DNA of 64,000 nt from Leptospiraceae bacterium (GCA_026418015.1 JAOACE010000009.1:62001-126000), one strand, 5' to 3'; numbered from the stretch's first letter, positions 3,633-64,000 are shown. Notes: generated by a model not told the origin, from the sequence alone. Program-made: numbers and translations.

Positions 3633-3667
3633 CTTGTAGGATTTTTTCCTACAAGAATTTTTTTTAT
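3633..3667. terminator. Rho-independent terminator between convergent genes
   Basis: A 9-bp perfect stem (3633-3641 with 3647-3655) and a 5-base loop are followed on the + strand by an almost pure T run (3658-3665). It fits termination of the sbcDC operon and overlaps the 3' end of the opposing dehydrogenase gene. Confidence 0.8.
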
Positions 3668-4536
3668 AATTGGATTTGATTTAGGTCTTCGTTAATTTTT
3701 ACTAAAATTGCAAAATCTTCTTCGCCATAACCTGCATTCATACCTGCATTGTAGATTGTTTTTAGAGAAGAACAAAGGGGCAAAGCAACTTGATAATTCA
3801 TAGATTGTTTGATTGCATGGTTAATATCTTTGTTCATGTTCTTTAACGCGAAATGCGCAGAAAAATCTCTTTTTTTTGCCATGTTGATTTTAAATTCTAA
3901 TATGGGAGATTTCGCCGCGGAATTGATCAAAATATCGTATAAAACCTGAAAATCAATCCCTTGTTTTTTTGCCAACATAAAACCTTCTAAGTAGACTTGA
4001 TAGATTCCTGCTTGGATCATATTGAGTGCAATCTTCGCGCGTTGACCATAAGAAACAGGACCACATCGAATCGTCAACTTTCCACAATTTTCGAATACAT
4101 CTTTTCCAGCTTGATAGTCTTCTTCTGTGCCACCCATCATATAAATGATTTCTCCCGCTAAGGCAGCATTTTTACTTCCTGTCATGGGCGCATCGAAAAA
4201 ACGAAACCCTTTTTTTTGTGATTCATCAAACATTCTTAACGTTAAATCTGGGGATGTGGTGCCCGTATCGATAACAACTTTTAAATTGCTTTCTAGAAAA
4301 TCTTGATGAAAAAAAACATTTTCAACTACTGGATCTTCTGTTAAACATAAAATTACTATGTCGGATTGATCTACTGCTTCTTTTAAATTCGATGTGATGA
4401 TGGTTCTTTCGTCTTTAAGATCCTTTATTTTCTCTGGATTTCGCGTATATAATCGAAGCGAATATCCCTTTTTTTGTAGGTTGATTGCCATACCCCTACC
4501 CATGATACCTACGCCAACAATGCTAATGGTCTTCAT
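3664..4536 (-). CDS. NAD(P)-dependent beta-hydroxyacid dehydrogenase (3-hydroxyisobutyrate dehydrogenase / glyoxylate reductase family)
   Basis: The 290-residue protein has the family layout. An N-terminal Rossmann motif GVGIMGRGMA is followed by the substrate-binding stretch FFDAPMTGSKNAALAGE (about 115-131), and the catalytic Lys sits in GQRAKIALNMI (about 165-175) before an all-helical C-terminal domain. This family interconverts small hydroxyacids and semialdehydes, for example 3-hydroxyisobutyrate, glyoxylate or succinic semialdehyde. The GSK substrate motif, in place of the common SGG, leans towards the glyoxylate/succinic-semialdehyde reductase branch, but the substrate cannot be fixed from sequence. 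It is a single gene with no clear operon partner. Confidence 0.85.
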   Translation of the reverse strand: MKTISIVGVGIMGRGMAINLQKKGYSLRLYTRNPEKIKDLKDERTIITSNLKEAVDQSDIVILCLTEDPVVENVFFHQDFLESNLKVVIDTGTTSPDLTLRMFDESQKKGFRFFDAPMTGSKNAALAGEIIYMMGGTEEDYQAGKDVFENCGKLTIRCGPVSYGQRAKIALNMIQAGIYQVYLEGFMLAKKQGIDFQVLYDILINSAAKSPILEFKINMAKKRDFSAHFALKNMNKDINHAIKQSMNYQVALPLCSSLKTIYNAGMNAGYGEEDFAILVKINEDLNQIQL

Positions 4537-4618
4537 AATTTACAGATTAATTGGATGTAAAATCGTTTCAAGTATTTATTATTTGTTTGCTAAAAGAAAA
4601 TTAGCTTGTATCTATTTT

Positions 4619-5285
4619 TGTCAAATTCATTTTTTTTAAAGATTTATTTTTTCTATGATAGTTTTTTACCAAAATGAGATATTATTTAGTATGAGACAAG
4701 ATAATTACACTACAAAATCCCTTCCCCCCGTATGCATCAACCTCGAATCTCAACACTTAGCTTTTCTTTCTCTACTCGCTACATCCCACTTTAACGGCAA
4801 CCACTACCTCGCCATTTCCTTTCTTCTGAATAAATATCTTTTCTACCTCTATGAAATTCGAATCACCCCTTACAAAAAAACAGAAACTGCGAACTATCAG
4901 CCCAAAAACAAACTCTACAAAAGAAAAACCATTCTGATGAACCCAGTCCTTTGGAGCAATCTCTTTGAACTACGGCACTTTATCGGCTACTCTATCAGTG
5001 CACTAATTCGCATCATAATCGAATGGGAGATGCTCTCTTTGGGATACGACATAATTCCCTTAATTCCTTTACCTAATCTAACACATGATGTTTCTTTATC
5101 GAATCAAGTAATCTCAACTAATAACTATCTTTACAAAAAGCAAGGATATCACTCATCAAGAGAAATTATTTGTAGTTTTTTGAATGAATTTGGTTGATGT
5201 TATAATAATTTTATAAATATTAATTATTTTTTATTATATTTTCATCATATTTTTTTTCATCAATATCTCTTACCGAAAAAGTATT
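4619..5285 (+). repeat. Dispersed repeat unit, copy 1 (carries a DUF1564-like ORF)
   Basis: About 667 bp nearly identical to 22001-22668 and 33426-34093. The shared left edge is TGTCAAATTC and the shared right edge is CTCTTACCGAAAAAGTATT. Identity includes about 36 bp before the ORF and 85-90 bp after it. Copies 1 and 3 also share GCTAA beyond the right edge and TTT before the left edge. There are no convincing terminal inverted repeats, target-site duplications or transposase. The inside is visibly richer in C than the surrounding DNA. Confidence 0.9.
4655..5197 (+). CDS. DUF1564-like protein, copy 1
   Basis: 180-residue protein of unknown function, present three times in this window with only 7-9 residue differences between copies. 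The central part (YQPKNKLYKRKTILMN, then PVLWSNLFELRHFIGYSISA and IRIIIEWEM) matches my recollection of DUF1564, a small helical family expanded in Leptospira whose function is unknown. No Shine-Dalgarno is visible before the ATG at 4655 or before the alternative ATG at 4691. Codon use is C-rich (ttc, ctc, acc, cac), unlike the neighbours. It may be a DNA-binding or mobile-element protein, but nothing in the sequence proves that. The family label is from memory and unverified. Confidence 0.72.
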   Translation: MIVFYQNEILFSMRQDNYTTKSLPPVCINLESQHLAFLSLLATSHFNGNHYLAISFLLNKYLFYLYEIRITPYKKTETANYQPKNKLYKRKTILMNPVLWSNLFELRHFIGYSISALIRIIIEWEMLSLGYDIIPLIPLPNLTHDVSLSNQVISTNNYLYKKQGYHSSREIICSFLNEFG

Positions 5286-5306: not shown

Positions 5307-5585
5307 TTGAATCATTCACTCGCATCATTTCATCAGATTTATAAAATAAAACAGTTGAAAAATTATAAATATGTGATTAAATTCGTATTAGTAAAAAAAC
5401 TCAATAAAAAAGCAGAAGTGTCTGAACTTAAAGGCTGTCATACTCAGTCAAAGTCGGTGGATGAATTAATAGAAAGAATCAAAGAAGCAATTGAACTTTG
5501 CTTAGATGTATATGGGGATGAGTATCAAAAATTAAAGCTTGTAGGTGTCCAAAAAAATCAGATAGGACAAAACTTCCGTCATTAA
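5307..5585 (+). CDS. hicB: HicB-like antitoxin (possibly decaying)
   Basis: The core ELKGCHTQSKSVDELIERI followed by KEAIELCLD (about residues 40-70) is the signature of HicB/UPF0150 antitoxins, which neutralise the HicA mRNA interferase. The N-terminal beta strands seem shortened, and translation may really start at the TTG at 5355 (LKNYKYVI). The normal C-terminus GVQ-K-I/R is followed here by an A7 run (5551-5557). Removing one A would give a stop after VQKIR, so the last residues may be a frameshift product. The hicA gene immediately downstream is broken. The pair lies between repeat copy 1 and the type I RM operon. Confidence 0.72.
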   Translation: MNHSLASFHQIYKIKQLKNYKYVIKFVLVKKLNKKAEVSELKGCHTQSKSVDELIERIKEAIELCLDVYGDEYQKLKLVGVQKNQIGQNFRH

Positions 5586-9304: not shown

Positions 9305-9392
9305 GAAAACCTCGCACTTTATTATCTTTTCATATTTTACTTTCTCGTCTTTTTTGTAGTTATATCATGAAATAAATCATCTTCATGAGAGT

Positions 9393-9524
9393 TTATTCTT
9401 GAAACCCTAAGATTGTATTCTTATAATTGGATGTAGTATCAAGTTCAAAAACACATTCCCAGCTAAAGATCTGGAGTAGCTTCAGGAAGAACTGTTTGAT
9501 GGAAGACTCACTGATTTTAGGCAT
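9393..9524 (-). pseudogene. Short ORF resembling an hsdR N-terminus (remnant)
   Basis: A 43-codon ORF with its own Shine-Dalgarno (GGAGAG, overlapping the end of the OLD gene) begins MPKISESSIKQFFLKLLQ and then SWECVF. Many HsdR proteins start with M-x-KISESxIE...LL..LGW/Y, so this looks like the first ~35 codons of an hsdR whose remainder is gone. The intact hsdR downstream starts with MIYENEIEQLAIDLL. It could instead be an unrelated small protein. The ORF is plainly visible; its origin is an inference. Confidence 0.45.
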
Positions 9525-9529
9525 GAGAA

Positions 9530-11392
9530 TTATCTCTCCTTTATAAAAGTTTTATTTACAAGGTCTTTTATTTCCTCAAACCAAGTCTTAACCTCATCCC
9601 ATGCACCTAATTTTTCAAGATGGTCTTTGGTTATTTTTTTTGCACAAGATCCGCAAATCTTTGATTTAATATCAACCTCTTTCATTTTTTTACATTTATC
9701 GTAGCTTTGAATTGCTTTCACAATATCTAAATTATCCCACTCTGAGTCTTCCTTTATATCCAAAGTAATTCCAAACTCCGTCTCTATAATTTCCTTTGGA
9801 ACATAATTTTCTATCTCTCTCTTTTTAGTTAATCGAGCTTTTGAACCATCTTTTCTTGAATTAACAATTTCAATTTGTTCTTTATATTTTTCGTCATGAT
9901 CTCTATCGTATAAATGATATTCGATTACGTTTGTATTCTTTAAAGCATATCTGTTAATCCAATCTTTTAGATTAGCCCCATGCATAGGAATAACAGATAA
10001 AAGGCCATTCTTTATACACTCTTCTAAATTAATTATTTTTTTTAATTCTTCAATATTTTGGTTTATATTTATAAGAAATAGTTCATCAGTTGTGCCCTCT
10101 ACACATAAAACCACCTTTGATATTTCAGGTAGTAATCCAAGATTTTCAATAATTTTTCCGGCAATTTCTTCTGAAAAATCAAAAACATTAGATTCTCCTT
10201 CTACTTTTTCAACAAACTTTATATATTTAGTCTCAAACAACCTTATTAAGGCTGGGCTATGTGTAGTCATTATTACTTGGTAATTAGCTTTCTTTGATAA
10301 TTCAATTAAAGAATTTACCAATTTTATCTGTAGGTCTGGGTGTAGAGAAGTTTCTGGTTCTTCAATTGCATATATCACATGAGAATCTTCATTTCCTTCT
10401 GTTTTTTTCTCAACATCAGCTAATAAAGAGCTTAGCAATACTATTCTTCTAAAGCCGCTCCCCCTCTTGTTTAAAGGTACATCATCTTCAGTCTTAAACC
10501 CAAGATTCTTATAAACATCCTTCCATTTAAGATCGGAAACATCAGGGATATCTGGGTATATTGAAGTTTCAATGGTTGATATTTCTTTGAATTTATGAAT
10601 TATTAAATCAGCAATCTCTTTAATTTCGTTATTCACTTCATTAGCTATGTCTTCAAGAGTTTTTTGTATTTTCTCATTTTTAAAAACTTGTTCAATTTTT
10701 ATTTTTAATGGATCCTGTATTTCTGCATCTTGATCTATGTTTTCTCTATCCGAATGGAAAAGAGCGTATATGGGAAGGTATTTATTTAATTGACTCCAAA
10801 TATCTTTTAACCCATCTGCATTAATAGGTAAATCTATAGTATCATATTTAAGTTCACCATCTTTCTTCATGTAATATTCTCTAATAGATTTTCGCAACTC
10901 TGCTGCCTTTCGTTTATCAACTACATATATTCCTTTTTCTTCCACAAATCCTTGCAACTCATTTATCTTTTTTTTCATAATATCTTTCAAAAAATCATCA
11001 TTAACGGGATGTTTACATCTTAAAAGAGTATTTGTAAGCTTACCATTCCTAAATATTTTCCAAATTTCTAACAAATTGTTCTCATTTAACAAATACTCAT
11101 CTTCTAAGGAGGTAGGATTGGTGGCATCAATAATCACATCTTTTGGGATATCAGAAAATTCTAAAGCAATCTTAAATTCTGAAATTTCATCTTTTTGAGC
11201 GTTAATATTTAAATCTGTTGATTCTATTTTGACATTCCCTTTTCCCTCATAGATAAAAATATCTATTGCTTCCAAGATTGAAGATTTACCTTGATCATTT
11301 TTTCCTATAAAAACATTAAAATTATCGAACGAAATTTCATGTTTACCATAAAACCCTCTAAAGTTTTCCAAAATTAATTTTGATATTTTCAT
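9530..11392 (-). CDS. OLD-family ATP-dependent nuclease (AAA ATPase plus TOPRIM) inside the type I RM operon
   Basis: 620-residue protein. The N-terminal SMC/RecF-like ATPase has Walker A GKNDQGKSS (about 33-41), RGSGFRR as a signature-like motif (about 308-314), Walker B VIYAIEEPETSLHPD (about 343-357) and THSPAL. The C-terminal TOPRIM-like part has LCVEGTTDELFL (about 427), YDRDHD (about 497) and EIENYVP (about 527), then a CGSC pair near the end. This matches the OLD/GajA/PARIS-type architecture used in phage defence. Its ATG overlaps the hsdS stop (ATGA), so the two genes are translationally coupled and the protein probably belongs to the RM system. No UvrD-like (GajB) partner is nearby. 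Confidence 0.85.
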   Translation of the reverse strand: MKISKLILENFRGFYGKHEISFDNFNVFIGKNDQGKSSILEAIDIFIYEGKGNVKIESTDLNINAQKDEISEFKIALEFSDIPKDVIIDATNPTSLEDEYLLNENNLLEIWKIFRNGKLTNTLLRCKHPVNDDFLKDIMKKKINELQGFVEEKGIYVVDKRKAAELRKSIREYYMKKDGELKYDTIDLPINADGLKDIWSQLNKYLPIYALFHSDRENIDQDAEIQDPLKIKIEQVFKNEKIQKTLEDIANEVNNEIKEIADLIIHKFKEISTIETSIYPDIPDVSDLKWKDVYKNLGFKTEDDVPLNKRGSGFRRIVLLSSLLADVEKKTEGNEDSHVIYAIEEPETSLHPDLQIKLVNSLIELSKKANYQVIMTTHSPALIRLFETKYIKFVEKVEGESNVFDFSEEIAGKIIENLGLLPEISKVVLCVEGTTDELFLININQNIEELKKIINLEECIKNGLLSVIPMHGANLKDWINRYALKNTNVIEYHLYDRDHDEKYKEQIEIVNSRKDGSKARLTKKREIENYVPKEIIETEFGITLDIKEDSEWDNLDIVKAIQSYDKCKKMKEVDIKSKICGSCAKKITKDHLEKLGAWDEVKTWFEEIKDLVNKTFIKER

Positions 11393-12504
11393 AATATATT
11401 CACCTCTCCGCTCATTAATTTTGGTAGTAGTGTATCTCTTAGTTTTTCAAGGGTTTGGATTTGAGATGTGTTAAATTGTATTTTTGTAAAAATATTTCTT
11501 GATATTGCTTCAAAGTCTTTTAGAAGATCTATCTTTGGTAAAAATATTTCCATTTTTTTAATATCAGATTGACGAATTAATGGTTGAGTGCTTCCAGAGT
11601 TGTATTCATCTAATTTAGCATTCTTCAATGTGAAATATACGAAATAATAATATTCATTCTTCTTGGGTCTGATAACTAGAGTATTATCTGTCAGCCATAC
11701 TTTTTCATTTTTAAAAACTATAAAAACATTTCCTAATGTTCCAACTCTTCCTGTATAAATTAATTCTCCTTCATAAAGCCAATCATCAACTCTTCCTATT
11801 TCACCATTTGCTCCTAAAACCGGATATAATCCCTTCTCTTTTAATTTCCCTTTTTCTATGCTTTTTCCACTTGAAATTTCTATAATTTCTCCCAAACTTA
11901 CCTCTCCCCACCCGTCAGGCAATCCATCTTTTGTTGGCTCAATAAACCACTGCCTGAATAAAGTCATTGCCATTTTTTCAAGTGTTTTATTTTGACGATG
12001 GAGTAGCTCTATTTTGTCATCTATGCTTGAAAGAACATCAGCTATAGCTTTTTGCTCGTGGAGAGGGGGAAGGGGAATCAATCTTTCTTTTAATATCTTA
12101 AAATGTCTATCATATCCCTCTGACGGGATATTGAGATTTAACAAAGCATAATAGAAGTATTTTCTGTGAAACTTTTCTTTTGGAACAATTATTTTTAAGC
12201 CATCTGCTCCATATATAAATGGGAAATCAACGTATTTAATTATTCTTGTATGATCTCCGAATAAAATAACTGGTAAATCTTTATCAAATACCATAGTTTC
12301 ATCATCATGAAAACCTGCAATATACTTCTGACTTTGATCTATTACTGGAAATTTACCAAAAGTTTTATAATCACTTTGTTTTAATTTTGCATTAGGTGTA
12401 AAACTGTTTATTACATCTCCCACCTTCACTACTTCCCAATGTTCTGGAATTAAACCTATCTCAGTTTCTTTAAATCTACTTTCCATCTCTTCCAAAAACT
12501 CCAT
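11389..12504 (-). CDS. hsdS: Type I restriction specificity subunit S (HsdS), system 1
   Basis: Recognises the bipartite DNA target for HsdM/HsdR. The 371 residues have two target-recognition domains: about 20-145, and about 200-325, the latter opening with GWGEVSLGEIIEISSGKS. Each is followed by a conserved helix region, first PLPPLHEQKAIADVLSSIDD and later an IQTLEKLRDTLLPKLMSG-like end. The ATG at 12504 lies 4 bases after the hsdM stop. An internal ATG (MESRFKETEIGLIP) is a possible alternative start. The stop overlaps the OLD-like gene start. Confidence 0.93.
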   Translation of the reverse strand: MEFLEEMESRFKETEIGLIPEHWEVVKVGDVINSFTPNAKLKQSDYKTFGKFPVIDQSQKYIAGFHDDETMVFDKDLPVILFGDHTRIIKYVDFPFIYGADGLKIIVPKEKFHRKYFYYALLNLNIPSEGYDRHFKILKERLIPLPPLHEQKAIADVLSSIDDKIELLHRQNKTLEKMAMTLFRQWFIEPTKDGLPDGWGEVSLGEIIEISSGKSIEKGKLKEKGLYPVLGANGEIGRVDDWLYEGELIYTGRVGTLGNVFIVFKNEKVWLTDNTLVIRPKKNEYYYFVYFTLKNAKLDEYNSGSTQPLIRQSDIKKMEIFLPKIDLLKDFEAISRNIFTKIQFNTSQIQTLEKLRDTLLPKLMSGEVNIL

Positions 12505-22000: not shown

Positions 22001-22668
22001 TGTCAAATTCATTTTTTTTAAAGATTTATTTTTTCTATGATAGTTTTTTACCAAAATGAGATATTATTTAGTATGAGACAAGATAATTACTCTACAAAAT
22101 CCCTTCACCCCGTATGCATCAACCTCGAACCTCAACACTTAGCTTTTCTTTCTCTACTCGCTACATCCCGCTTTAACGGCAACCACTACCTCGCCATTTC
22201 CTTTCTTCTGAATAAATATCTTTTCTACCTCTATGAAATTCGAATCACTCCTTACAAAAAAACAGAAACCGCTAACTATCAGCCCAAAAACAAACTCTAC
22301 AAAAGAAAAACCATTCTGATGAATCCAGTCCTTTGGAGCAATCTCTTTGAACTACGGCACTTTATCGGCTACTCTATTAGTGCACTGATTCGCATCATAA
22401 TCGAATGGGAGATGCTCTCTTTGGGATACTACATAATTCCATTAATCCCTTTACCTAATCTAACACATGATGTTTCTTTATCGAATCAAGTAATCACAAC
22501 TAATAACTATCATTACAATAAGCAAGGATATCACTCAACAAGGGAAATTATTTGTAGTTTTTTGAATGAATTTGGTTGATGTTATATTATTTTTATAAAT
22601 ATTTATAAATATATAATATATTTTCTTTATATATTTTTTTTATTAATATCTCTTACCGAAAAAGTATT
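22001..22668 (+). repeat. Dispersed repeat unit, copy 2
   Basis: About 668 bp matching 4619-5285 and 33426-34093, with the same left edge TGTCAAATTC and right edge CCGAAAAAGTATT. The last bases overlap the stop codon of the NagZ-like gene on the other strand. The flank before the left edge (AATTA) differs from copies 1 and 3, which fixes that boundary. Confidence 0.9.
22037..22579 (+). CDS. DUF1564-like protein, copy 2
   Basis: Same 180-residue protein as at 4655 with 9 substitutions, for example Ser for Thr near residue 18, Arg for His in LLATSRFNGN and Tyr for Asp in SLGYYIIP. Many other differences are silent, and the frame is intact in all copies. This suggests the protein is, or was until recently, selected. 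The function is unknown and the family assignment is from memory. Confidence 0.72.
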   Translation: MIVFYQNEILFSMRQDNYSTKSLHPVCINLEPQHLAFLSLLATSRFNGNHYLAISFLLNKYLFYLYEIRITPYKKTETANYQPKNKLYKRKTILMNPVLWSNLFELRHFIGYSISALIRIIIEWEMLSLGYYIIPLIPLPNLTHDVSLSNQVITTNNYHYNKQGYHSTREIICSFLNEFG

Positions 22669-33425: not shown

Positions 33426-34093
33426 TGTCAAATTCATTTTTTTTAAAGATTTGTTTTTTCTATGATAGTTTTTTACCAAAATGAGATATTATTTAGTATG
33501 AGACAAGATAATTACACTACAAAATCCCTTCACCCCGTATGCATCAACCTCGAACCTCAACACTTAGCTTTTCTTTCTCTACTCGCTACATCCCACTTTA
33601 ACGGCAACCACTACCTCGCCATTTCCTTTCTTCTGAATAAATATCTTTTCTACCTCTATGAAATTCGAATTACCCCTCACAAAAAAACAGAAACCGCGAA
33701 CTATCAGCCCAAAAACAAACTCTACAAAAGAAAAACCATTCTGATGAACCCAGTCCTTTGGAGCAATCTCTTTGAACTAAGACACTTTATCGGCTACTCT
33801 AGCAGTGCACTGATTCGCATCATAATCGAATGGGGGATGCTCTCTTTGGGATACGACATAATTCCTTTAATCCCTTTACCTAATCTAACACATGATGTTT
33901 CTTTACCCAATCAAGTAATCTCAACTAATAACTATCTTTACAAAAAGCAAGGATTTCACTCATCAAGAGAAATTATTTGTAGTTTTTTGAATGAATTTGG
34001 TTGATGTTATATTATTTTTATAAATATTTATAAATTTATAATATATTTTCTTTATATATTTTTTTTATCAATTTCTCTTACCGAAAAAGTATT
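33426..34093 (+). repeat. Dispersed repeat unit, copy 3
   Basis: About 668 bp matching the units at 4619 and 22001, bounded by TGTCAAATTC and CCGAAAAAGTATT. The match with copy 1 continues for GCTAA. That CTA supplies the stop codon (34095-34097) of the GerMN gene on the other strand. Confidence 0.9.
33462..34004 (+). CDS. DUF1564-like protein, copy 3
   Basis: Third copy of the 180-residue protein, 7 substitutions from copy 1 (for example Ser for Ile in GYSSSALIR, Gly for Glu in EWGML, Phe for Tyr in QGFHSS). The frame is intact. No Shine-Dalgarno is visible. The family label is from memory and the function is unknown. Confidence 0.72.
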   Translation: MIVFYQNEILFSMRQDNYTTKSLHPVCINLEPQHLAFLSLLATSHFNGNHYLAISFLLNKYLFYLYEIRITPHKKTETANYQPKNKLYKRKTILMNPVLWSNLFELRHFIGYSSSALIRIIIEWGMLSLGYDIIPLIPLPNLTHDVSLPNQVISTNNYLYKKQGFHSSREIICSFLNEFG

Positions 34094-55659: not shown

Positions 55660-56334
55660 TCAAATCCTTAGTAGATGGCCGTTTCGTTTTAGCCAGTCGT
55701 CGTGTTTTTCGTAATCGGGCATAAGCATTTTAACTTTAATCCAGAAAAATTTTGAATGGTTTTTTTCTTCTAAATGGACAAGTTCATGCACGACCACATA
55801 GTCTATTACTGGAAGTGGTGCCATAATTAGTCGCCAAGAGAAATTCAAATTGTTTTTGGGAGAGCAAGACCCCCATCTTTGTTTTGCATCTGTGATGTTG
55901 ATTTTATTATAAACAAATCCTCTTTTTTTTGCATACCATTCTACTCTTTCGGAAATCTTTTCGTAAGCTCTTTCTTTATACCAGCGAATCAAAACATCTC
56001 TTGCAGAAGGAAGATAATCCTTCGAAAGATAAAAAGAATGATGATCAAAAACCAGTGGTGTGTTTTGTTTTTCTACGAGGACTAATTTATAATACCGTCC
56101 AAGGTATAAAAAGCCTTCGCCATTTACAAACTCTTTGGGAACAAATTTGGGATCTCGCGAAAGAATCTTTTTTTTCTTTTTTTCTATCCAATCTTTATGC
56201 TTAATGACAACATTTTTGATAGTTTGTTCACTTACATCATAAGGTGCACGAACAATTAAGTTAGCATCTTCGGTAATTTGTAATGCAATGGTTTTTCTTT
56301 TGGTTCGGATGATTTTATCGATCTTAATTTCCAT
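55660..56334 (-). CDS. YgjP-like zinc metallopeptidase (M48/DUF45)
   Basis: 224 aa from the ATG at 56334 (MEIKIDKIIRTKRKTIAL), overlapping the hsdR stop by 11 bases; an ATG at 56361 would give 233 aa. The zinc site is VVHELVHLEEKNHSKFFW (HExxH plus distal Glu). DAKQRWGSCSPKNNLNFSW is the family's conserved RWGSC stretch. The family often sits in type I RM operons, as here, but its substrate is unknown. Confidence 0.9.
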   Translation of the reverse strand: MEIKIDKIIRTKRKTIALQITEDANLIVRAPYDVSEQTIKNVVIKHKDWIEKKKKKILSRDPKFVPKEFVNGEGFLYLGRYYKLVLVEKQNTPLVFDHHSFYLSKDYLPSARDVLIRWYKERAYEKISERVEWYAKKRGFVYNKINITDAKQRWGSCSPKNNLNFSWRLIMAPLPVIDYVVVHELVHLEEKNHSKFFWIKVKMLMPDYEKHDDWLKRNGHLLRI

Positions 56335-59300
56335 TTTTTGGTCCATAGATGTGATAGGCAAGTTCTAGTAATCTTTGGGCTATTTCGTTTCTTTTGCTAA
56401 ATAAATCTACTTGTTTCTTTGTTCCATAAGTGCCATGATCTTCTTTTACAACATCATCTTCATTTGGGGAAGATTGTCGTGAAGAAAATCTCAATATATG
56501 GGATGCGAGGAAACCTTTTAGTCTTTTTTGTTTTTCATAGCTATCCCAAAAATCAACCATCTGAATTTCTCTTTTGATGATTTCTAAAAAATCTTGGGTT
56601 AAATTAACAAGAAGATTTATCTGATCGTCTTCTAATTTTTCGAGAGGAATTTCATTTCCGAAAATCATATTTTTAAGTAAACCAAAAAAGGGCATTTCTA
56701 TTTTTGGATCAAAGCCGAAGGTTTCTTCGTTTTCTCTTCCGATTTTAATTTGATCTCGCAGTTTTAAGAATTCTTGGGCAAGTAGTTCCCAATTTTCTTT
56801 GTATTCTTCGAGCACTTTTTTTAGTCGATCAGAAAATCTTTCGTAGAATTCGGGGTCTTCTTCGCTGTGTTCTTCGATGTATTGGATGATTGCTCTTTTT
56901 AATTCTTCCGCAGTCGCTTTGGGAGATTTATTTTCTAATTCTTGGACAAAAGCTTCGGAAAGTAAAGGGAACGGAGGTATCTTTGGGTTTATGCCTTGGG
57001 AAATCAAATACTCTTCGACAATTTCTCTAATTTTGTTGCTTGCATCTTTTATGCTGAGTCTATCGTCTCTATATCTGTTCCTTGCACTTTCTTTTATAAA
57101 ACTTATTATTTTCAAGTCTTCTACATATTTTAAAGCCTCAGGATCAGGTAGCACCTTGTCCATTGCTCTATCGAATCTACGAGCATAATTTATGAACTCA
57201 TTTCTTATTTCTTCATCTGCTAATAAGTCAATACACTCTTCAATGTTTTCTTTCCAATTGCTAATACCGTATTTCTTGAAAAACTCATTTAATTTGCTAT
57301 GAGTGGATTTAAGTTCATCTTTGCTTTTTGCTTTATTGACAACAACTTGGCTTATTTCTTTGATATCTTCGTCTGAATATACCGCGAGGGATTTTTCTAG
57401 ATTCCTTAGAATACCGACATAATCAACTACGAAACCACAGCTTTTATTTTTATATACCCTGTTGACTCTTGCTATTGCTTGTAGAAGATTATGGTTTTTT
57501 ATTGGTCTATCCAAATACAACACTTGTTCAATCGGTGCATCAAATCCTGTTACAAGCATTTCATTGACTACGATAAATCCGACATCTCCAGATATTCCGC
57601 TTTCATCAACTTTATCAAAAGGCATTTTAAATCTCTTTATGTTTTTGTCTTGTTCTTGCTTATCGGTGTATTCTTTTTTGTATTTTGAAGGGTCATCATT
57701 TTGTGATGATGAAATCACAACAGCAACTTTTAATTTTTTCAGTGTGTCAAGGTCTACTTTATCGAGGTTGCTTTTTTCTAATTCTTTTATTTTTTCTTGT
57801 AGTGCTTCTTCGAGTGCTTGTTTGTATCTTACTGCTGCAAATCGCGAAACTGCCACCACTTGTGCTTTAAATTTATTTGGGAAAACATGCTTTATATAAT
57901 GTTCTACCATATCTTTTGCTTTGTCTCGAATTACTTCTTCTGCTTCGAGGTAGGCTTGCCAGGTATATCTTCCGAGGATCAAACGTCTTTCGTCCTTATC
58001 TACGTATTGAAAGACTTCTTCGAATTTCGCGTTAGCAGCTTTTTCGTTAGAAAGTTCTGCAGAATGGGTTCTTCCTTCGTAGACAATTTCGACTGTTACG
58101 CCATCCTCTACGGATTGCTTTATCCCGTATTTATCAATATACTCGCCAAAAGTCAATTCTGTTTTTTCTATTGGAGTTCCGGTAAAGGCAATTTTTACAG
58201 AATTGGGAAGTGCTTTTCTTAGGTTTGCACCGAGTAATTTGTATTGTGTTCTGTGTGCTTCGTCTATCATCACAAGAATATTCGGAGATTCGTTTAGCAC
58301 GGGAAACGAAGTTTTTAATTCTCTTTCTTGGAATTTATGAATCATCGCCATGATTAAGTCGGGTGTATTGGTTTTTAGCAGTTCTTTGAGCGTTTTTATG
58401 TTGTTGGCATGATGGATGGTAAAACCTACACTTTTTGATGTTTCTTTGAGTTGTTTTTCGAGTTGTTCTCTGTCTGTAATAAAAATGATTTTAAAATTGC
58501 TTAGTTCTGGGTCGTGGTAAAATGCTCTTACTGTTTGCATCATTGTAAGTGATTTTCCAGAACCTTGCGTATGCCAAACAATACCGCCTTTTTCTTCGGG
58601 GGTTTTTCCTTTTTTGATTTTTTCGATGATTTTATGAACTGCTCTAAATTGCTGGTATCTTGGAGCTATTTTTTTGAATCCTTTTGTGTCTTCTACAAAA
58701 AGGGTAAAGGTGCGAAGAATCGAGAGCAAATTCTTTTTCGATAGCATTCCATGTATTAGAACATTCTGACTGGTAATGTTTTTCTTTTCGTTTAGGTCTG
58801 ATAGACTATAGGGGTATGGGTCTTTCCATTCGTAGAAATGTTCGTATTCAGAGGATATTGTTCCGTATTTTGCAACTTGGTTTGAGGTTGCAATCATGAG
58901 GAGGTTGTACCAAAATAGTTTTTCGTTTCCTTCTTTGGTTTCTCTTCTGTTTGAATATCTCATGAGTTGGGTGATGGCTTCGTTGATGGGGTCAGAGGTT
59001 GCTGGGGATTTACATTCAACAACGATTAGAGGTAAGCCGTTGACAAAAAGAACAATATCGGGGATGATATGTTTTTCTGTGCCTGGGATATTGACTTTAA
59101 ATTGTGAGATTGCAATAAAAGTGTTATTTTCTGGGTTCCTAAAATCTATGAATTTAACTGTTGGGCTTTTTTCGCCTGTTTTTCTGTTTTCTTGGACTGA
59201 TGTATTTTCTATTAGTAAATAGTGAATTTCTCTATTAATTTCTAGCAATGAATTTGTCTGTGGTGTTGAGATTCTTCTTATAACTTCGGTTATTTGGTCA

Positions 59301-59548
59301 TCCTCAATCCAAGGGTTTATTCTCTTTATTGAATTTCTTAATTCTTTTTCAAGAATTACTTCTCTAAAGCTTTCTCTGAATTTTACGCTACTACGGTAGA
59401 TGGGTTCCATTAAGTCGTTGAATTCTATGATTTCTTTTACATCTTCGGGGTTATCTTTGTTTTGTCGGTAAATCTTCCATCCCAACCGTTGCAATTGGGC
59501 AAGGAAGGGATTTTCTACATAGTGTTCTTCATCAAGTTTGGCATACAT
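56324..59548 (-). CDS. hsdR: Type I restriction endonuclease subunit R (HsdR), system 2
   Basis: 1074 aa. The nuclease motif is PDIVLFVNGLPLIVVECKSP (about 163-182). Helicase motifs are HTQGSGKSLTM (about 327-337), IDEAHRTQY (about 428), AFTGTPIEKTEL and QAIARVNRVYKNKSCG. It is related to but clearly distinct from the hsdR at 6185, so this is an independent system. It lies between the DUF262 nuclease gene (2-base gap) and the YgjP gene (overlap), all on one strand. hsdM is not in the window. Confidence 0.95.
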   Translation of the reverse strand: MYAKLDEEHYVENPFLAQLQRLGWKIYRQNKDNPEDVKEIIEFNDLMEPIYRSSVKFRESFREVILEKELRNSIKRINPWIEDDQITEVIRRISTPQTNSLLEINREIHYLLIENTSVQENRKTGEKSPTVKFIDFRNPENNTFIAISQFKVNIPGTEKHIIPDIVLFVNGLPLIVVECKSPATSDPINEAITQLMRYSNRRETKEGNEKLFWYNLLMIATSNQVAKYGTISSEYEHFYEWKDPYPYSLSDLNEKKNITSQNVLIHGMLSKKNLLSILRTFTLFVEDTKGFKKIAPRYQQFRAVHKIIEKIKKGKTPEEKGGIVWHTQGSGKSLTMMQTVRAFYHDPELSNFKIIFITDREQLEKQLKETSKSVGFTIHHANNIKTLKELLKTNTPDLIMAMIHKFQERELKTSFPVLNESPNILVMIDEAHRTQYKLLGANLRKALPNSVKIAFTGTPIEKTELTFGEYIDKYGIKQSVEDGVTVEIVYEGRTHSAELSNEKAANAKFEEVFQYVDKDERRLILGRYTWQAYLEAEEVIRDKAKDMVEHYIKHVFPNKFKAQVVAVSRFAAVRYKQALEEALQEKIKELEKSNLDKVDLDTLKKLKVAVVISSSQNDDPSKYKKEYTDKQEQDKNIKRFKMPFDKVDESGISGDVGFIVVNEMLVTGFDAPIEQVLYLDRPIKNHNLLQAIARVNRVYKNKSCGFVVDYVGILRNLEKSLAVYSDEDIKEISQVVVNKAKSKDELKSTHSKLNEFFKKYGISNWKENIEECIDLLADEEIRNEFINYARRFDRAMDKVLPDPEALKYVEDLKIISFIKESARNRYRDDRLSIKDASNKIREIVEEYLISQGINPKIPPFPLLSEAFVQELENKSPKATAEELKRAIIQYIEEHSEEDPEFYERFSDRLKKVLEEYKENWELLAQEFLKLRDQIKIGRENEETFGFDPKIEMPFFGLLKNMIFGNEIPLEKLEDDQINLLVNLTQDFLEIIKREIQMVDFWDSYEKQKRLKGFLASHILRFSSRQSSPNEDDVVKEDHGTYGTKKQVDLFSKRNEIAQRLLELAYHIYGPKNGN

Positions 59549-59550
59549 GT

Positions 59551-61320
59551 TTACTCCTTTAAACCTATAAGGGTTTTAATTTTAACAACTATCAATTTCT
59601 CTCTCATATCAATAAACTTTTCAAAGTTTTGCTTTATTTTCTCCATTGGTAAATTTTTAGATGTTTCTCTCATAATTTCAAACATTTCCTCATTAATGAA
59701 ATGCTTTTCTAAAATATTTTTAACATTATTTTCTGCTTCCTTATAACTTATTTTTTTGTTATTCATTTGGATCTCTATCATTTCTTTTAAATAATCTGCA
59801 GGGCTGTTGTTAGAGATAATCTTGTTTGTTTTGTCGAATATGAGGGTTCTATTAAGAACAATATCAGCCTCAGCCTCTATATCCTTTAAAAAATTCCTTG
59901 GGAAAATGTGATGATCGTTTAATTCGTTGTAGGCAATATTTTCGGGCTCGAAGAAATCAAGAGGATTTTTCATCATTAATAAATTAAAGACGCCCTTGTA
60001 TAAAGAGCTTCCAACTCTTTTAACATTCTTTAGCGTAAAAACATTTTTCCGAATGAGCTCTCTAAAATCCTTCACCACCTCAGGAACTGCTGAGTCATCA
60101 TTGAACCATTTTGAAACTTCCCTGAAATCTTTCATGATTTTTGATTCTGTAGAACCAGAATAACTTTCTGAGAAGACTACACTCCAATACCACATATTAA
60201 TCTTCTCCATATCTGGATGCGCATATTTTAAATGGAAAGCAAGATACGGAATAATTATAGTTGAATACGGGAGCCATTTACCAACACTTTCTCCAATACC
60301 ATAACTTCCTCTTTCAAAAAGCTTATTTAAAACCTTATTCTCTGCTATATCGACTACTCTATCCCACTCCTGCTTGTTTAAAGTTTGCGAATCTAACTTT
60401 ATCAGATCTCTATCTTTTATGCTTTTATCCTTTGAAAGAGCAAGTGCTTGAATAAAAGAAAAAGGTACTGAAGTCTCATCTACATTATTAGAAGCAAGTT
60501 TCTTAATGTTGTGGTAATCGTTGTTATCATAGAACAATCTTTCCCATTCTTCTCTTAGTTTTATAAATTTGTAAAAGCGAGCAACAAGCAAATCATAGGT
60601 AGACAATTTTATTCCAGTTCTATTAAGCCTTTCAAATAGCATAACAATTTTATCTGGTTGTTCATTAAAATACTGCTGTAAAGAAAGCGTTATCACATCA
60701 TAATAAAAAATCCTATCCAAGTAACTTTTAACCTTTTTTGCTATATCCTTATCAAATAAGTCTTTGAAATCTTCATACCAGGTATCGTTAAAAACTCCGA
60801 CATCACGGAACAAAGTCATTGGAATTATTTTTTCTTCCTTAAGTCTTTGAATATTAAACGAATTTTCTCCATTTAAGAGGCTTTTATAAAACCTGTCATT
60901 CTTTGGTACACTAAATACTGCTTCATCGAAATTGTCCTCTGAAAGTTTCTGTAGGTCAATAAAGAACGAGTAAGGTCGCTCAGTAAATCTAAGGGGGATA
61001 TTAGGACTATATATAGCATAAAAGAGAGCAGTAAGCCTCTGTTGCCCATCAAGAATTAGTATTGTAGGCTTAGCCTCTATTTTAGGATTTATTTCTTCTG
61101 CTCCTTGAATGAAAATACATTTAAAAGGATTCATCTCGCTGCTCGTATTAAGAATCAGGAAAGTGCCAATAAAAATATTTTCCAAAATTGACTCTATCAA
61201 CTCTTCTATACTTTGTCTTTCCCAGACAAAATTTCTTTGAAAATCTGGAAGCATTACTTCTCCTCTGTATGCCATATTTACAAGATCTAAAATCTTTTTT
61301 GTTCCGTGTTCAATTTCCAT
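59551..61320 (-). CDS. GmrSD-like DUF262/DUF1524 nuclease embedded in the type I RM operon
   Basis: 589 aa. The N-terminal DUF262 (ParB-like NTPase) shows LPDFQRNFVWERQSIEELIES (about 24-43) and ILDGQQRLTALFYAIY (about 90-105). The C-terminal DUF1524 HNH region has NELNDHHIFPRNFL (about 462-475) and RTLIFDKTNKIISNNSP. This is the single-chain form of type IV GmrSD, which restricts modified phage DNA. It sits between hsdS and hsdR with 2-3 base gaps, so it is co-expressed with the type I enzyme. The DGQQR motif and the HNH His pair are intact. Confidence 0.87.
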   Translation of the reverse strand: MEIEHGTKKILDLVNMAYRGEVMLPDFQRNFVWERQSIEELIESILENIFIGTFLILNTSSEMNPFKCIFIQGAEEINPKIEAKPTILILDGQQRLTALFYAIYSPNIPLRFTERPYSFFIDLQKLSEDNFDEAVFSVPKNDRFYKSLLNGENSFNIQRLKEEKIIPMTLFRDVGVFNDTWYEDFKDLFDKDIAKKVKSYLDRIFYYDVITLSLQQYFNEQPDKIVMLFERLNRTGIKLSTYDLLVARFYKFIKLREEWERLFYDNNDYHNIKKLASNNVDETSVPFSFIQALALSKDKSIKDRDLIKLDSQTLNKQEWDRVVDIAENKVLNKLFERGSYGIGESVGKWLPYSTIIIPYLAFHLKYAHPDMEKINMWYWSVVFSESYSGSTESKIMKDFREVSKWFNDDSAVPEVVKDFRELIRKNVFTLKNVKRVGSSLYKGVFNLLMMKNPLDFFEPENIAYNELNDHHIFPRNFLKDIEAEADIVLNRTLIFDKTNKIISNNSPADYLKEMIEIQMNNKKISYKEAENNVKNILEKHFINEEMFEIMRETSKNLPMEKIKQNFEKFIDMREKLIVVKIKTLIGLKE

Positions 61321-61323
61321 AAA

Positions 61324-62562
61324 TTAATCCTCCTTTATTAAATTGTTCACTCGTACTTTTCCAGTTAATAGATCTTCCATAAGCCCTTGTTTTATTCTTT
61401 TGAGTTTTTCTTTATAGTGTTCTTCTTTTTCGATGGTTTGGTCTATTTGTGAAAGTATTTCTGCAATGCGTTGTTGTTCGGGGAGCGGGGGTAGGGGGAT
61501 TAAAGCATTTTCTATTGTTTCTTTAGTTATACCAAATCTTGTTATACCATTTGCTCTTTTTTGAAAAAAAATATTTATAGACTGAAGCTTTAAAGCTTTA
61601 GATAAAAATAACCCATCAACTGTGTTTTTAGGTCTAAGCATTGCAAGATGATAACCACAAACTAAATTAGGTATTTTTTCAGAAACATAGGAAGGTTTAG
61701 CGATATCATAAAATTCTTCTGAATCTTTTGTAATAATAACGTCTCCTTTTAAAACATTAAATTTGTCAATTTCTCTTTTTGTGGCTGTGCCTATCATAAA
61801 ATTTATAGACTTAGTTATATAATCATTTTTATAAACGTCCAAATAATTACAAAGCATAGCTTTCTTTTCTTTCTCGACTATTTTTTTATCTACATTGCTT
61901 ATTCTTATATCACATACCTCTCCCAATCTCACCACTTCCCACTCTTCTGGTATTCTGCCAAGTGGGGAGTCTTTAAACTTGTGTGTTTTTTCATCTCTGA
62001 TATTGCCGTTTTCGTCTATGCCTTTGGTGAGTAAATCCTGCATCAAGCCCTGTTTTATGCGTTTGTATTTTTCTATGATCTTCTCGGTTTTTTCTATGGT
62101 GTTATCAATTGTCTCAAGAATTTCAGCAATTTTTTGCTGCTCGGGGAGCGGGGGGAGGGGGATGAGGAGATTTTGGAAATGTGGTAACCTTAGAGAGAAA
62201 ACAGTTGTACCAACAGAAACTTTAATAAGTTGATCTTTTAGCAGGTGCATCAAATAGTAGAAAAATTTTCCTTCCAATCCTTTAAAATCAAATATAGCAT
62301 AAGCTCTCTGGTGCAAGTCAAATTTCCCTTTGTAGTATTTTGGTATAAAATACAAACCTTCACCAGGCACAATTACTGCCTCCTTATTTAAAAAATATCC
62401 GTCACTCCTTTTAACTTCTCCTGACCTATCAAAAAGAGGATAAATCCCACCATCAACAGCATCCTGCACATTTGAGTTGCCGGTAGCTATTTTTGCAACC
62501 TCTCCCAACCTTACCCACTTCCACCCCTCTGGCAAATCTTTAAACCCTTTCTCATTATTCAT
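61324..62562 (-). CDS. hsdS: Type I restriction specificity subunit S (HsdS), system 2
   Basis: About 412 aa from the ATG giving MNNEKGFKDLPEGWKWVRLG; an in-frame codon at 62583 adds seven residues. TRD1 is at about 15-135, then the conserved region PLPPLPEQQKIAEILETIDN (about 137-200) ending KQGLMQDLLTKG. TRD2 begins EEWEVVRLGEVCDIRISN, followed by a second PLPPLPEQQRIAEIL and KQGLMEDLLTGK. The Shine-Dalgarno is poor. Its upstream DNA is a diverged duplicate of the DNA before the hsdS half-gene at 62775. Confidence 0.92.
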   Translation of the reverse strand: MNNEKGFKDLPEGWKWVRLGEVAKIATGNSNVQDAVDGGIYPLFDRSGEVKRSDGYFLNKEAVIVPGEGLYFIPKYYKGKFDLHQRAYAIFDFKGLEGKFFYYLMHLLKDQLIKVSVGTTVFSLRLPHFQNLLIPLPPLPEQQKIAEILETIDNTIEKTEKIIEKYKRIKQGLMQDLLTKGIDENGNIRDEKTHKFKDSPLGRIPEEWEVVRLGEVCDIRISNVDKKIVEKEKKAMLCNYLDVYKNDYITKSINFMIGTATKREIDKFNVLKGDVIITKDSEEFYDIAKPSYVSEKIPNLVCGYHLAMLRPKNTVDGLFLSKALKLQSINIFFQKRANGITRFGITKETIENALIPLPPLPEQQRIAEILSQIDQTIEKEEHYKEKLKRIKQGLMEDLLTGKVRVNNLIKED

Positions 62563-62699
62563 AATTAAGGAACATCTAAACAAAATAAACTGCGTGCAAT
62601 AAAAATCAAAAACATAACATAAAAAAAATTTCGCGTGTATTTTATCTTACACAAAAACATTTTTGTAAAGCAAAAAGCAATTTCACTTTATAATTTTTT

Positions 62700-62785
62700 T
62701 AGATAAATTTACGATTATACGACTAATAGCATACTCTGCCGATTTTCTTTTTTTAGATGGTTTATGTAATCGTATTAGTCCTGCT
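62700..62785 (-). pseudogene. 3' remnant of a duplicated fic gene
   Basis: Read on the - strand, one frame gives AGLIRLHKPSKKRKSAEYAI, homologous to the end of the Fic gene at 63475 (AGLIHLHKPSEGRKSAEYAF). The DNA of 62729-62784 aligns without gaps to 63521-63576 with about 8 mismatches in 56. The remnant starts exactly where the hsdS half-gene loses homology, marking a deletion junction. Confidence 0.8.
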
Positions 62786-63383
62786 TAAAACCCTGTTTGA
62801 TTCGTTTGTATCTTTTGATTATTTTATCTATCATCTTTATAGGATTACCAATCATTTGGAGAAGGAACACGATTATTTTCTGCTCGGGAAGTGGTGGGAG
62901 CGGAAATTCAAACGACTCTATAACACTTGGACTAATATTTGGTTGGGAACTAGTCGCAAAGCGATTTAAAACAAAATTATAAAACTCATTACTATTTAAC
63001 AAAAAAAATAAAAAGGTTTTATTAATTTGATTTGTATTTATGTTAAATCTTCCAACCCGTTGGTTGAACAAAGCAATTCCCATATCCTTCACAATTCCAA
63101 CCTTGCCAATTGTTGCACCTGATAAAGATATTAAAATATCATTTTCATTTGTTATAAAATCTTCATAAAATTGTATTTTGTTATCAGGCAGATAACTATT
63201 TGTCTCGTTCAATATAATTCTTTTATCTTCAAAATTTTCTATATCAATAATAGGAATGCCATCATCATCTTCTATAAATTCTTGAGATTTAAATGGAAAA
63301 CCTACTTCTACTTTGCAAACCTCTCCCAACCTTACCCACTTCCAATCCTCAACCATTATTTGATATATGTCTTTTACTTTCAT
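62775..63383 (-). pseudogene. hsdS half-gene (one TRD), truncated at a recombination junction
   Basis: About 202 codons from the ATG at 63383, preceded by AGAGGTGAT as Shine-Dalgarno. It has one target-recognition domain (EDWKWVRLGEVCKVEVGFPF onward) and the start of the conserved region, FPLPPLPEQKIIVFLLQMIG, then RYKRIKQGFKQD-stop. The stop arises because the gene is joined here to the 3' piece of a fic gene. Single-TRD HsdS proteins can dimerise and work, so this could still be expressed as an alternative specificity subunit or serve as a TRD donor for the hsdS downstream. Confidence 0.78.
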
Positions 63384-63431
63384 CCTATCACCTCTAAACA
63401 AAATAAATTGCGTAAATCAAAAGATATTGCT

Positions 63432-63473
63432 ACTTTACACAAAATAGTTTGTGTATATTTCACTTTACACAAA
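63432..63473. promoter_or_regulatory. Operator-like repeats between fic and the hsdS half-gene
   Basis: The 12-mer ACTTTACACAAA occurs at 63432-63443 and again at 63462-63473, 30 bp apart. Its inverse TTTGTGTA lies between (63448-63455), making a palindrome with 4-bp spacer. A related palindrome, TTACACAAAAAC...TTTTTGTAAA, stands at 62647-62669 in the duplicated unit. Confidence 0.45.
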
Positions 63474-63474
63474 T

Positions 63475-64000
63475 TTAACATACATCTCTACTCTCAATAA
63501 TATCTATTATGCCATTAAAAGCATACTCTGCTGATTTTCTTCCTTCAGAAGGTTTATGTAAATGTATTAATCCTGCATCAATCAAACTTTTTAAAACATT
63601 ATTCGCAGTTATTCTATTGGGTATACCTGTCATTTGAATGAAATTCGCCGTGCTTATTATCGGCTGTCTAAAAAACGCATCAAGAGCAGGAATAGCATAT
63701 TGAGATTTAGTAGCCTGTATAAATTTATCTTTCATCTCATTATAAAGATTCAAATGCTTTTGAGCTTTATCAGTATTTATTTTAGCCTGCTGGATGACTG
63801 CCGTTAAAAAGAAATCTATCCAACCGCTCCAATCATTATTTTTAGTTATCATCAACAATCTATCATAATACTCAGTTCTATTTTTTTCAAAATACTCACT
63901 CAAATAAAAACTTGGCCTTGAAATTAGCCCCTTCCAATACAAAAACAAAGGAATTATAAGACGCCCAACTCTGCCATTACCATCTTCAAAAGGGTGAAGA
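63475..64000 (-). CDS. Fic-family protein (AMP-transferase type), C-terminal part, runs off the right edge
   Basis: The frame is open to the end of the window and encodes the catalytic Fic motif HPFEDGNGRVGR at the very start of the visible part (63960-63999). A helical region follows, and then a winged-helix C-terminus (PIISTANFIQMTGIPNRIT, SLIDAGLIHLHKPSEGRKSA). Fic proteins of this architecture are common next to hsdS in type I RM loci and may regulate or modify partners by AMPylation. The inhibitory helix, if any, would be in the missing N-terminal part. About 174 residues are visible. The true start lies outside; an internal ATG at 63948 is not the start. Confidence 0.9.
   Translation of the reverse strand, partial: LHPFEDGNGRVGRLIIPLFLYWKGLISRPSFYLSEYFEKNRTEYYDRLLMITKNNDWSGWIDFFLTAVIQQAKINTDKAQKHLNLYNEMKDKFIQATKSQYAIPALDAFFRQPIISTANFIQMTGIPNRITANNVLKSLIDAGLIHLHKPSEGRKSAEYAFNGIIDIIESRDVC

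Follow-up and report, generated by a model that had tools for sequence, protein, structure and literature searches.

The window analysed here, a 64,000-nucleotide stretch of a Leptospiraceae bacterium contig (JAOACE010000009.1:62001-126000), contains a gene for a putative ATPase-TOPRIM protein inside a type I restriction-modification (RM) operon. The locus raises the question of what kind of protein this is and what it would do behind the specificity gene hsdS. The initial annotation had described an OLD/PARIS-like nuclease coupled to the type I system and suggested that it is a back-up fired when that system is blocked. The observation was right and the defence reading reasonable; what has to be toned down is the claimed affinity to PARIS, the specificity for type I systems and the proposed trigger. 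With moderate confidence, we read the gene as encoding a self-contained Class 1-like OLD nuclease in a cargo slot between hsdS and hsdR, which would provide a latent second layer of defence behind restriction.

Layout of the operon

The operon lies on the minus strand of the window in the order hsdM–hsdS–OLD–hsdR (Table 1). The hsdS gene starts 4 bp downstream of hsdM, and its stop shares an ATGA with the OLD start (junction sequence: GGAGAGGTGAATATATTATGAAA); a Shine-Dalgarno-like GGAGAGG is found about 10 nt upstream of the OLD start. ORF calls, Pfam matches and the junction sequence confirm the placement within a type I operon with an ATGA overlap to hsdS, and through this overlap translation of the OLD gene is predicted to be coupled to hsdS. 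The tight coupling is to hsdS, since hsdR comes only past the 225-bp gap. The short ORF in this gap may be a small regulator or a remnant of another cargo gene; a search of the fetched loci found no homologues of it. Promoter and terminator scans gave an outcome no better than that for shuffled sequences.

Two other kinds of ORF were seen around the operon. A 92-aa HicB-like ORF lies downstream of hsdR (5307-5585, plus strand), with no Pfam match and no obvious HicA partner. A 180-aa ORF, also without a Pfam match, occurs three times in the window (4655-5197, 22037-22579 and 33462-34004, plus strand; 95–100% identity) and has 44 matches over the 2.9-Mb genome (33–100% identity, several with stops), which suggests a large repeated gene family.

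Table 1. Features of the two type I RM operons and of related slot proteins (window positions unless a locus is named)
Feature	Position	Strand	Evidence or remark
hsdM, type I RM methyltransferase subunit, 515 aa	12509..14056	-	N6_Mtase E 3e-112, HsdM_N E 4e-29 (Pfam); many genomes of the phylum encode an HsdM 66-73% identical to it
hsdS, specificity subunit, two target-recognition domains, 371 aa	11389..12504	-	Methylase_S, 2 stretches, E 7e-38
ATGA overlap, hsdS stop/OLD start, 4 nt	11389..11392	-	read from sequence
Single-chain OLD-family ATPase-TOPRIM protein (predicted), 620 aa, ATG start	9530..11392	-	Pfam, homologue conservation, fold model, profile comparison
ABC ATPase domain, residues 1-383	10244..11392	-	AAA_15 full length, E 7e-72 (Pfam)
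Walker A, GKNDQGKS, residues 30-37	11282..11305	-	G30, N32, D33, G35, K36, S37 invariant in 49 homologues
ABC signature, KRGSG, residues 309-313	10454..10468	-	invariant in 49 homologues
Walker B, VIYAIEEPE, residues 339-347	10352..10378	-	E344, E345, P346, E347 invariant
TOPRIM and C-terminal helices, about residues 420-620	9533..10135	-	profile match to OLD-like TOPRIM; fold model
TOPRIM motif 1, VEGTTDE (E432, D436)	10082..10102	-	E432, G433, D436 invariant
TOPRIM motif 2, YDRDH (D496, D498)	9896..9910	-	D496 invariant, D498 at least 90%
EIENY motif (E526, E528), likely metal-B ligand	9803..9817	-	E528 invariant
OLD-hsdR gap, 225 bp	9305..9529	-	sequence read
43-codon ORF within the gap	9524-9393	-	good Shine-Dalgarno-like sequence
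hsdR, restriction subunit, 1039 aa	6185..9304	-	HSDR_N, SWI2_SNF2, T1RH-like_C (Pfam); TIGR00348 634 bits
Second type I RM operon	56324-63948, on to contig ~129000	-	hsdM-fic-hsdS(two)-GmrSD_N-hsdR
hsdM of second operon, 813 aa	past window end	-	
Fic gene, then 208-aa and 419-aa hsdS, second operon		-	
GmrSD_N/DUF262 protein between hsdS and hsdR, second operon	61320-59551	-	
hsdR of second operon	59548-56324	-	YgjP-like metallopeptidase next
AAA_15 ATPase with HEPN-like C-terminus (from sequence)	L047 4105-5883		fecal phage-labelled contig
AAA_15 ATPase with HEPN-like C-terminus (from sequence)	L129 10001-11524		
AAA_15 ATPase with HEPN-like C-terminus (from sequence)	L124 3128-4690		

Domains and family placement

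The OLD gene is an open reading frame in which every ATPase motif is intact. The TOPRIM motifs claimed initially (VEGTTDE, YDRDHD and EIENYVP) are all present and their acidic residues are conserved in an alignment of 49 homologues. Because the ATPase motifs and TOPRIM acids are invariant in these homologues (D498 in at least 90%), the gene appears to be intact and under selection. Pfam run on the single sequence sees the TOPRIM domain weakly (PF20469, E 0.055), and its recognition needed profile and fold comparison. AlphaFold with the alignment of 49 homologues gave a fold model with pLDDT 87.4 (a single-sequence model with pLDDT 33 was discarded), and its best PDB fold matches are Ts OLD (E 4.5e-16), GajA (E 6e-16) and retron-Eco8 OLD (E 4.5e-15), in keeping with the predicted OLD-family identity; the nearest PDB relatives by sequence are likewise OLD and GajA. 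Against OLD and GajA, however, the model reaches only low global TM-scores (0.28–0.34). The domain arrangement or oligomer may therefore differ from theirs, although the domains are of the same types and in the same order.

We compared the TOPRIM profile by hhalign with OLD-like and DUF4435 (AriB family) sets built locally. It matches the OLD-like TOPRIM set with probability 96.5 (E 9e-10) and the DUF4435 set, which has 4 sequences only, with probability 0.2; in a Pfam search of 28 homologues, OLD-like_TOPRIM was matched in 9 and DUF4435 (PF14491) in none. The TOPRIM profile had no real match among PDB sequences, the viral fold search returned generic SMC/Rad50-like matches only, and a PADLOC search via the alignment gave a weak match to the candidate PDC-M55B (E 3e-4). 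The two-metal residues of Ts OLD are E377, D381, D431, D433 and E480 (PMC7049728); they map onto E432, D436, D496, D498 and E528 by motif order, without superposition, and the EIENY motif is equated with S478/E480 of Ts OLD from order and spacing only. An invariant lysine in the C-terminal helices, K576, lies 48 residues past E528 and could be the counterpart of K562 of Class 2 OLD.

Since the TOPRIM profile matches the OLD type and the locus has neither GajB nor a reverse transcriptase, we place the predicted 620-aa protein by architecture among Class 1-like OLD proteins, and outside PARIS, Gabija and RecF.

Four more specific assignments were tried and rejected. Gabija fails as the UvrD-like helicase GajB is absent from the operon and its neighbours, just as had been noted at the outset. 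For a retron Eco8-type OLD effector, NF038234 scores 27.6 bits vs a cut-off of 250 and the neighbouring ORFs are without reverse transcriptase; for RecF, TIGR00611 scores 31.4 bits vs a cut-off of 172. A PrrC/RloC-type effector needs AAA_13 and a C-terminal R-x3-E-...-H nuclease, whereas AAA_15 and TOPRIM are found here.

Homologues and their neighbourhoods

Among 393 genomes of the same phylum there is one other full-length relative (30% identical; genome G131, locus L010), and it lies directly downstream of a type III-like restriction gene. The closest relatives, 55–60% identical, come from a Bacteroidota bacterium (L051), a member of Bacteroidia (L058), Thermosulfurimonas (L057) and Carboxydothermus (L052). 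The L058 gene is surrounded by an MmeI/Eco57I-type methylase, a PLD-helicase and a further helicase, with downstream genes common to L051; the L057 gene is found with a type III-like set and a SIR2-like gene, and no RM gene was recognised around L052. Type II systems adjoin homologues in L040, L041, L095 and L114, and type III systems in L065, L068, L072, L074 and L075. As to type I systems, the OLD gene is between hsdS and hsdR in L059 (with overlapping genes) and L079, both in the M-S-OLD-R order of the window, between hsdM and hsdS in L053 and L102, and adjacent in divergent orientation in L043 and L126.

RM genes (types I, II, III and IIG) occur within 5 kb of at least 22 of the 68 TOPRIM-bearing homologues. 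No RM gene was detected within 5 kb of 46 of the 68, so an RM link is not required. HsdM neighbours within 5 kb of OLD genes number 5 against about 0.15 expected in 43 genomes with sufficiently long contigs (54 strong N6_Mtase matches in about 179 Mb). On the family tree, six changes are needed to account for type I embedding, which has thus happened repeatedly; the HsdM of the window is 29–35% identical to those of L053, L059 and L079. With many RM types adjoining homologues and type I embedding arising repeatedly, the OLD gene is a mobile effector, complete in itself, that many RM systems have recruited. The type I-specific coupling proposed at first does not hold, as close relatives adjoin type III, type II and IIG-like systems or stand alone. 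Searches of viral contigs found no relative, and phage records gave partial relatives only.

Some homologue loci contain further genes. On a Salipiger plasmid (L042, 5569-11732), the homologue is found between an ArdC-type zincin-like metallopeptidase (anti-restriction factor) and a DUF262 gene, an arrangement that may be relevant to an anti-restriction link. In Vibrio maritimus (L043), a SIR2-family gene (3659-4858) lies between hsdS and hsdR and the OLD homologue is divergent beside hsdM, so that this type I locus has two extra effectors. A second, distant OLD-like ATPase gene is encoded a few kb from the homologue in L071 (5265-7031 and 10001-11893) and in L083 (7932-9302 and 10001-11857).

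Cargo of the hsdS-hsdR slot

HsdM proteins 55–73% identical to that of the window are found across the phylum, and in 9 of the 12 such loci that show both hsdS and hsdR, one or more ORFs intervene between these two genes. Two of these loci, with an HsdM about 70% identical to that of the window, encode 855-aa AAA_13 proteins in the slot (L163 3727-1160 and L164 4121-1554, minus strand). With their CxxC and their C-terminal R-x3-E...H, these are by sequence RloC-like proteins with anticodon nuclease features. The slot contains RhuM proteins in L170 and L171, where HsdM is again about 70% identical, and a DUF262-like protein in L178.

In Helicobacter MIT 00-7814 (L124) and Campylobacter coli (L129), the slot is occupied by a relative of the same ATPase (41–42% identical) with a short C-terminus containing RDQIHHPEN and no TOPRIM; we read this C-terminus as putatively HEPN-like (Table 1). 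The Helicobacter copy contains an in-frame stop. The exchange between TOPRIM and the HEPN-like part on the same ATPase is a single change on the tree.

The window has a second type I operon (Table 1), which resembles the Vibrio cholerae type I operon with embedded TgvAB. Two type I operons are therefore present in this genome, and the predicted nucleases behind their hsdS genes differ. Seen against these loci, the operon slot is more informative than the trigger proposed in the initial annotation, whose list of relatives omitted the nearest slot precedents: PrrC (hsdM-hsdS-prrC-hsdR), RloC/Rlo, DarTG2 and TgvAB.

Possible function

A second-line defence that sacrifices the cell is the most likely role of the OLD gene. 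The protein would be an ABC-ATPase sensor or regulator fused to a two-metal TOPRIM nuclease, from a gene inserted into the hsdS-hsdR cargo slot and translated in coupling with hsdS. The ATPase domain would keep the nuclease latent until an infection cue, arriving once restriction has failed, frees it; the freed nuclease would then cut nucleic acid and stop the cell, acting as a second layer behind restriction. We infer the nuclease activity, the latency and the abortive outcome alike. Both the slot and the exchange of effector domains speak for a self-contained second-layer effector gated by its ATPase, and a backup role is plausible; embedding alone is no proof of functional coupling, because the GmrSD-type TgvAB acts without HsdR (PMC11411939). 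Direct sensing of a phage factor, as in PARIS, is more likely than unmasking by the protein's own HsdMS complex, as in PrrC, because the module accompanies RM systems that are unrelated to one another and also occurs by itself. The main alternatives share the identity and embedding of the gene with this reading and differ in the trigger.

It is possible, though short of probable, that the gene is an independent defence with its own phage set and no RM link, for which the operon is a transcriptional berth and an insertion hotspot. TgvAB is such a case, the second type I operon of this genome holds a GmrSD-like gene in the same slot, the slot has been termed a potential recombination hotspot (PMC12255303), and many homologues are solo. 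However, the enrichment beside many types of methylation-based system is far over the background N6_Mtase density, and the OLD start overlaps hsdS instead of having its own promoter.

We regard it as unlikely that the OLD protein is held silent by HsdMS/HsdR of the same operon and freed when an anti-restriction protein binds the complex. PrrC, encoded in the same gene order (hsdM-hsdS-prrC-hsdR), is silenced by EcoprrI and released by T4 Stp in this way (PMC3014915); the ATGA coupling would fit stoichiometric assembly, and RloC-like ATPases fill the same slot where HsdM is about 70% identical. Yet the in-operon partners are unrelated (as the 29–35% identity between HsdM proteins indicates) and close homologues either accompany type II/III systems or stand alone, so that a partner surface would not be expected to be conserved; moreover, the type I-embedded members are dispersed over the tree. 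A related proposal is that the ATPase guards restriction by sensing either that the type I enzyme has been disabled or the phage protein responsible, with a TOPRIM that is an RNase (perhaps a tRNase) and interchangeable with the HEPN-like domain. We consider this speculative and doubtful; if true, Class 1-like OLD proteins would gain a trigger and a substrate. Substrates differ between these nucleases: DNA for OLD and GajA, RNA for AriB and for the HEPN proteins of this slot class.

Still less probable is a fused PARIS (AriAB) relative that would sense Ocr-like DNA mimics and cut tRNA. AriA is the top PADLOC model (209 bits), but this model lacks specificity and spans residues 1-383 only, the stretch matched by AAA_15; nor do the best 50 PDB folds include AriA. 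The PARIS-like label is therefore apt for the ATPase, in that AAA_15 is present as in AriA (a broad family), and fails for the TOPRIM, which does not align with DUF4435/AriB. Similarly, the protein is indeed a single chain, but this does not set it apart from PARIS, since fused AriAB exist (PMC9122126). A housekeeping RecF-like repair ATPase placed beside hsdS by chance has generic RecF/SMC similarity in its favour and can practically be dismissed given its RecF score far under the cut-off, the fused TOPRIM, the single relative without phylum-wide synteny and the recurrent defence context.

Comparison with known systems

Like the Class 1 OLD proteins P2 Old and Ts OLD (6P74), the window protein has ATPase and TOPRIM in one chain, the E/D/DxD/E acidic set and no helicase or reverse transcriptase partner (hsdR is the sole nearby helicase). 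It differs in being about 90 aa longer, with the C-terminal helical part that contains K576, and in its embedding in a type I RM operon: Class 1 OLD genes are described as standing singly, away from other defence genes (PMC10568477), yet restriction systems have recruited this subfamily time and again. GajA of Gabija (Class 2 OLD) has the same fold and domain order and works with GajB, absent here. AriA/AriB of PARIS, which senses Ocr (PMC9122126), and fused AriAB share the AAA_15 ATPase, a TOPRIM effector and the proposed anti-restriction trigger, whereas the TOPRIM of the window protein is of OLD type and not DUF4435.

As to position, PrrC likewise provides an ABC-ATPase effector between hsdS and hsdR, as do RloC and the rlo genes of C. 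jejuni, which are insertions within type I loci (PMC2610378, PMC2928727), but the effector here is TOPRIM rather than a HEPN-type anticodon nuclease and the ATPase is AAA_15 rather than AAA_13. DarTG2, between hsdS and hsdR (PMC12255303), and TgvAB, within a type I operon (PMC11411939), are embedded in the same way and are unrelated proteins (an ADP-ribosylation toxin-antitoxin and a GmrSD-type modification-dependent nuclease). BREX loci and BREX-related ones contain TOPRIM-linked OLD-ABC proteins, for which a role as suicidal backup has been proposed (PMC12839542); these, too, are OLD ATPase-TOPRIM proteins added to a methylation-based system, which in our case is type I RM.

The window gene thus adds a well-supported case to a theme already known, the embedded effectors of RM operons, and is not a new kind of system. 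What makes it valuable is that a TOPRIM and a HEPN-like part replace each other on a single ATPase in a single slot. With both forms set in a common type I backbone, a comparison would tell sensing by the ATPase apart from cutting by the effector, and would bear directly on whether RM operons generally carry fail-safe suicide modules.
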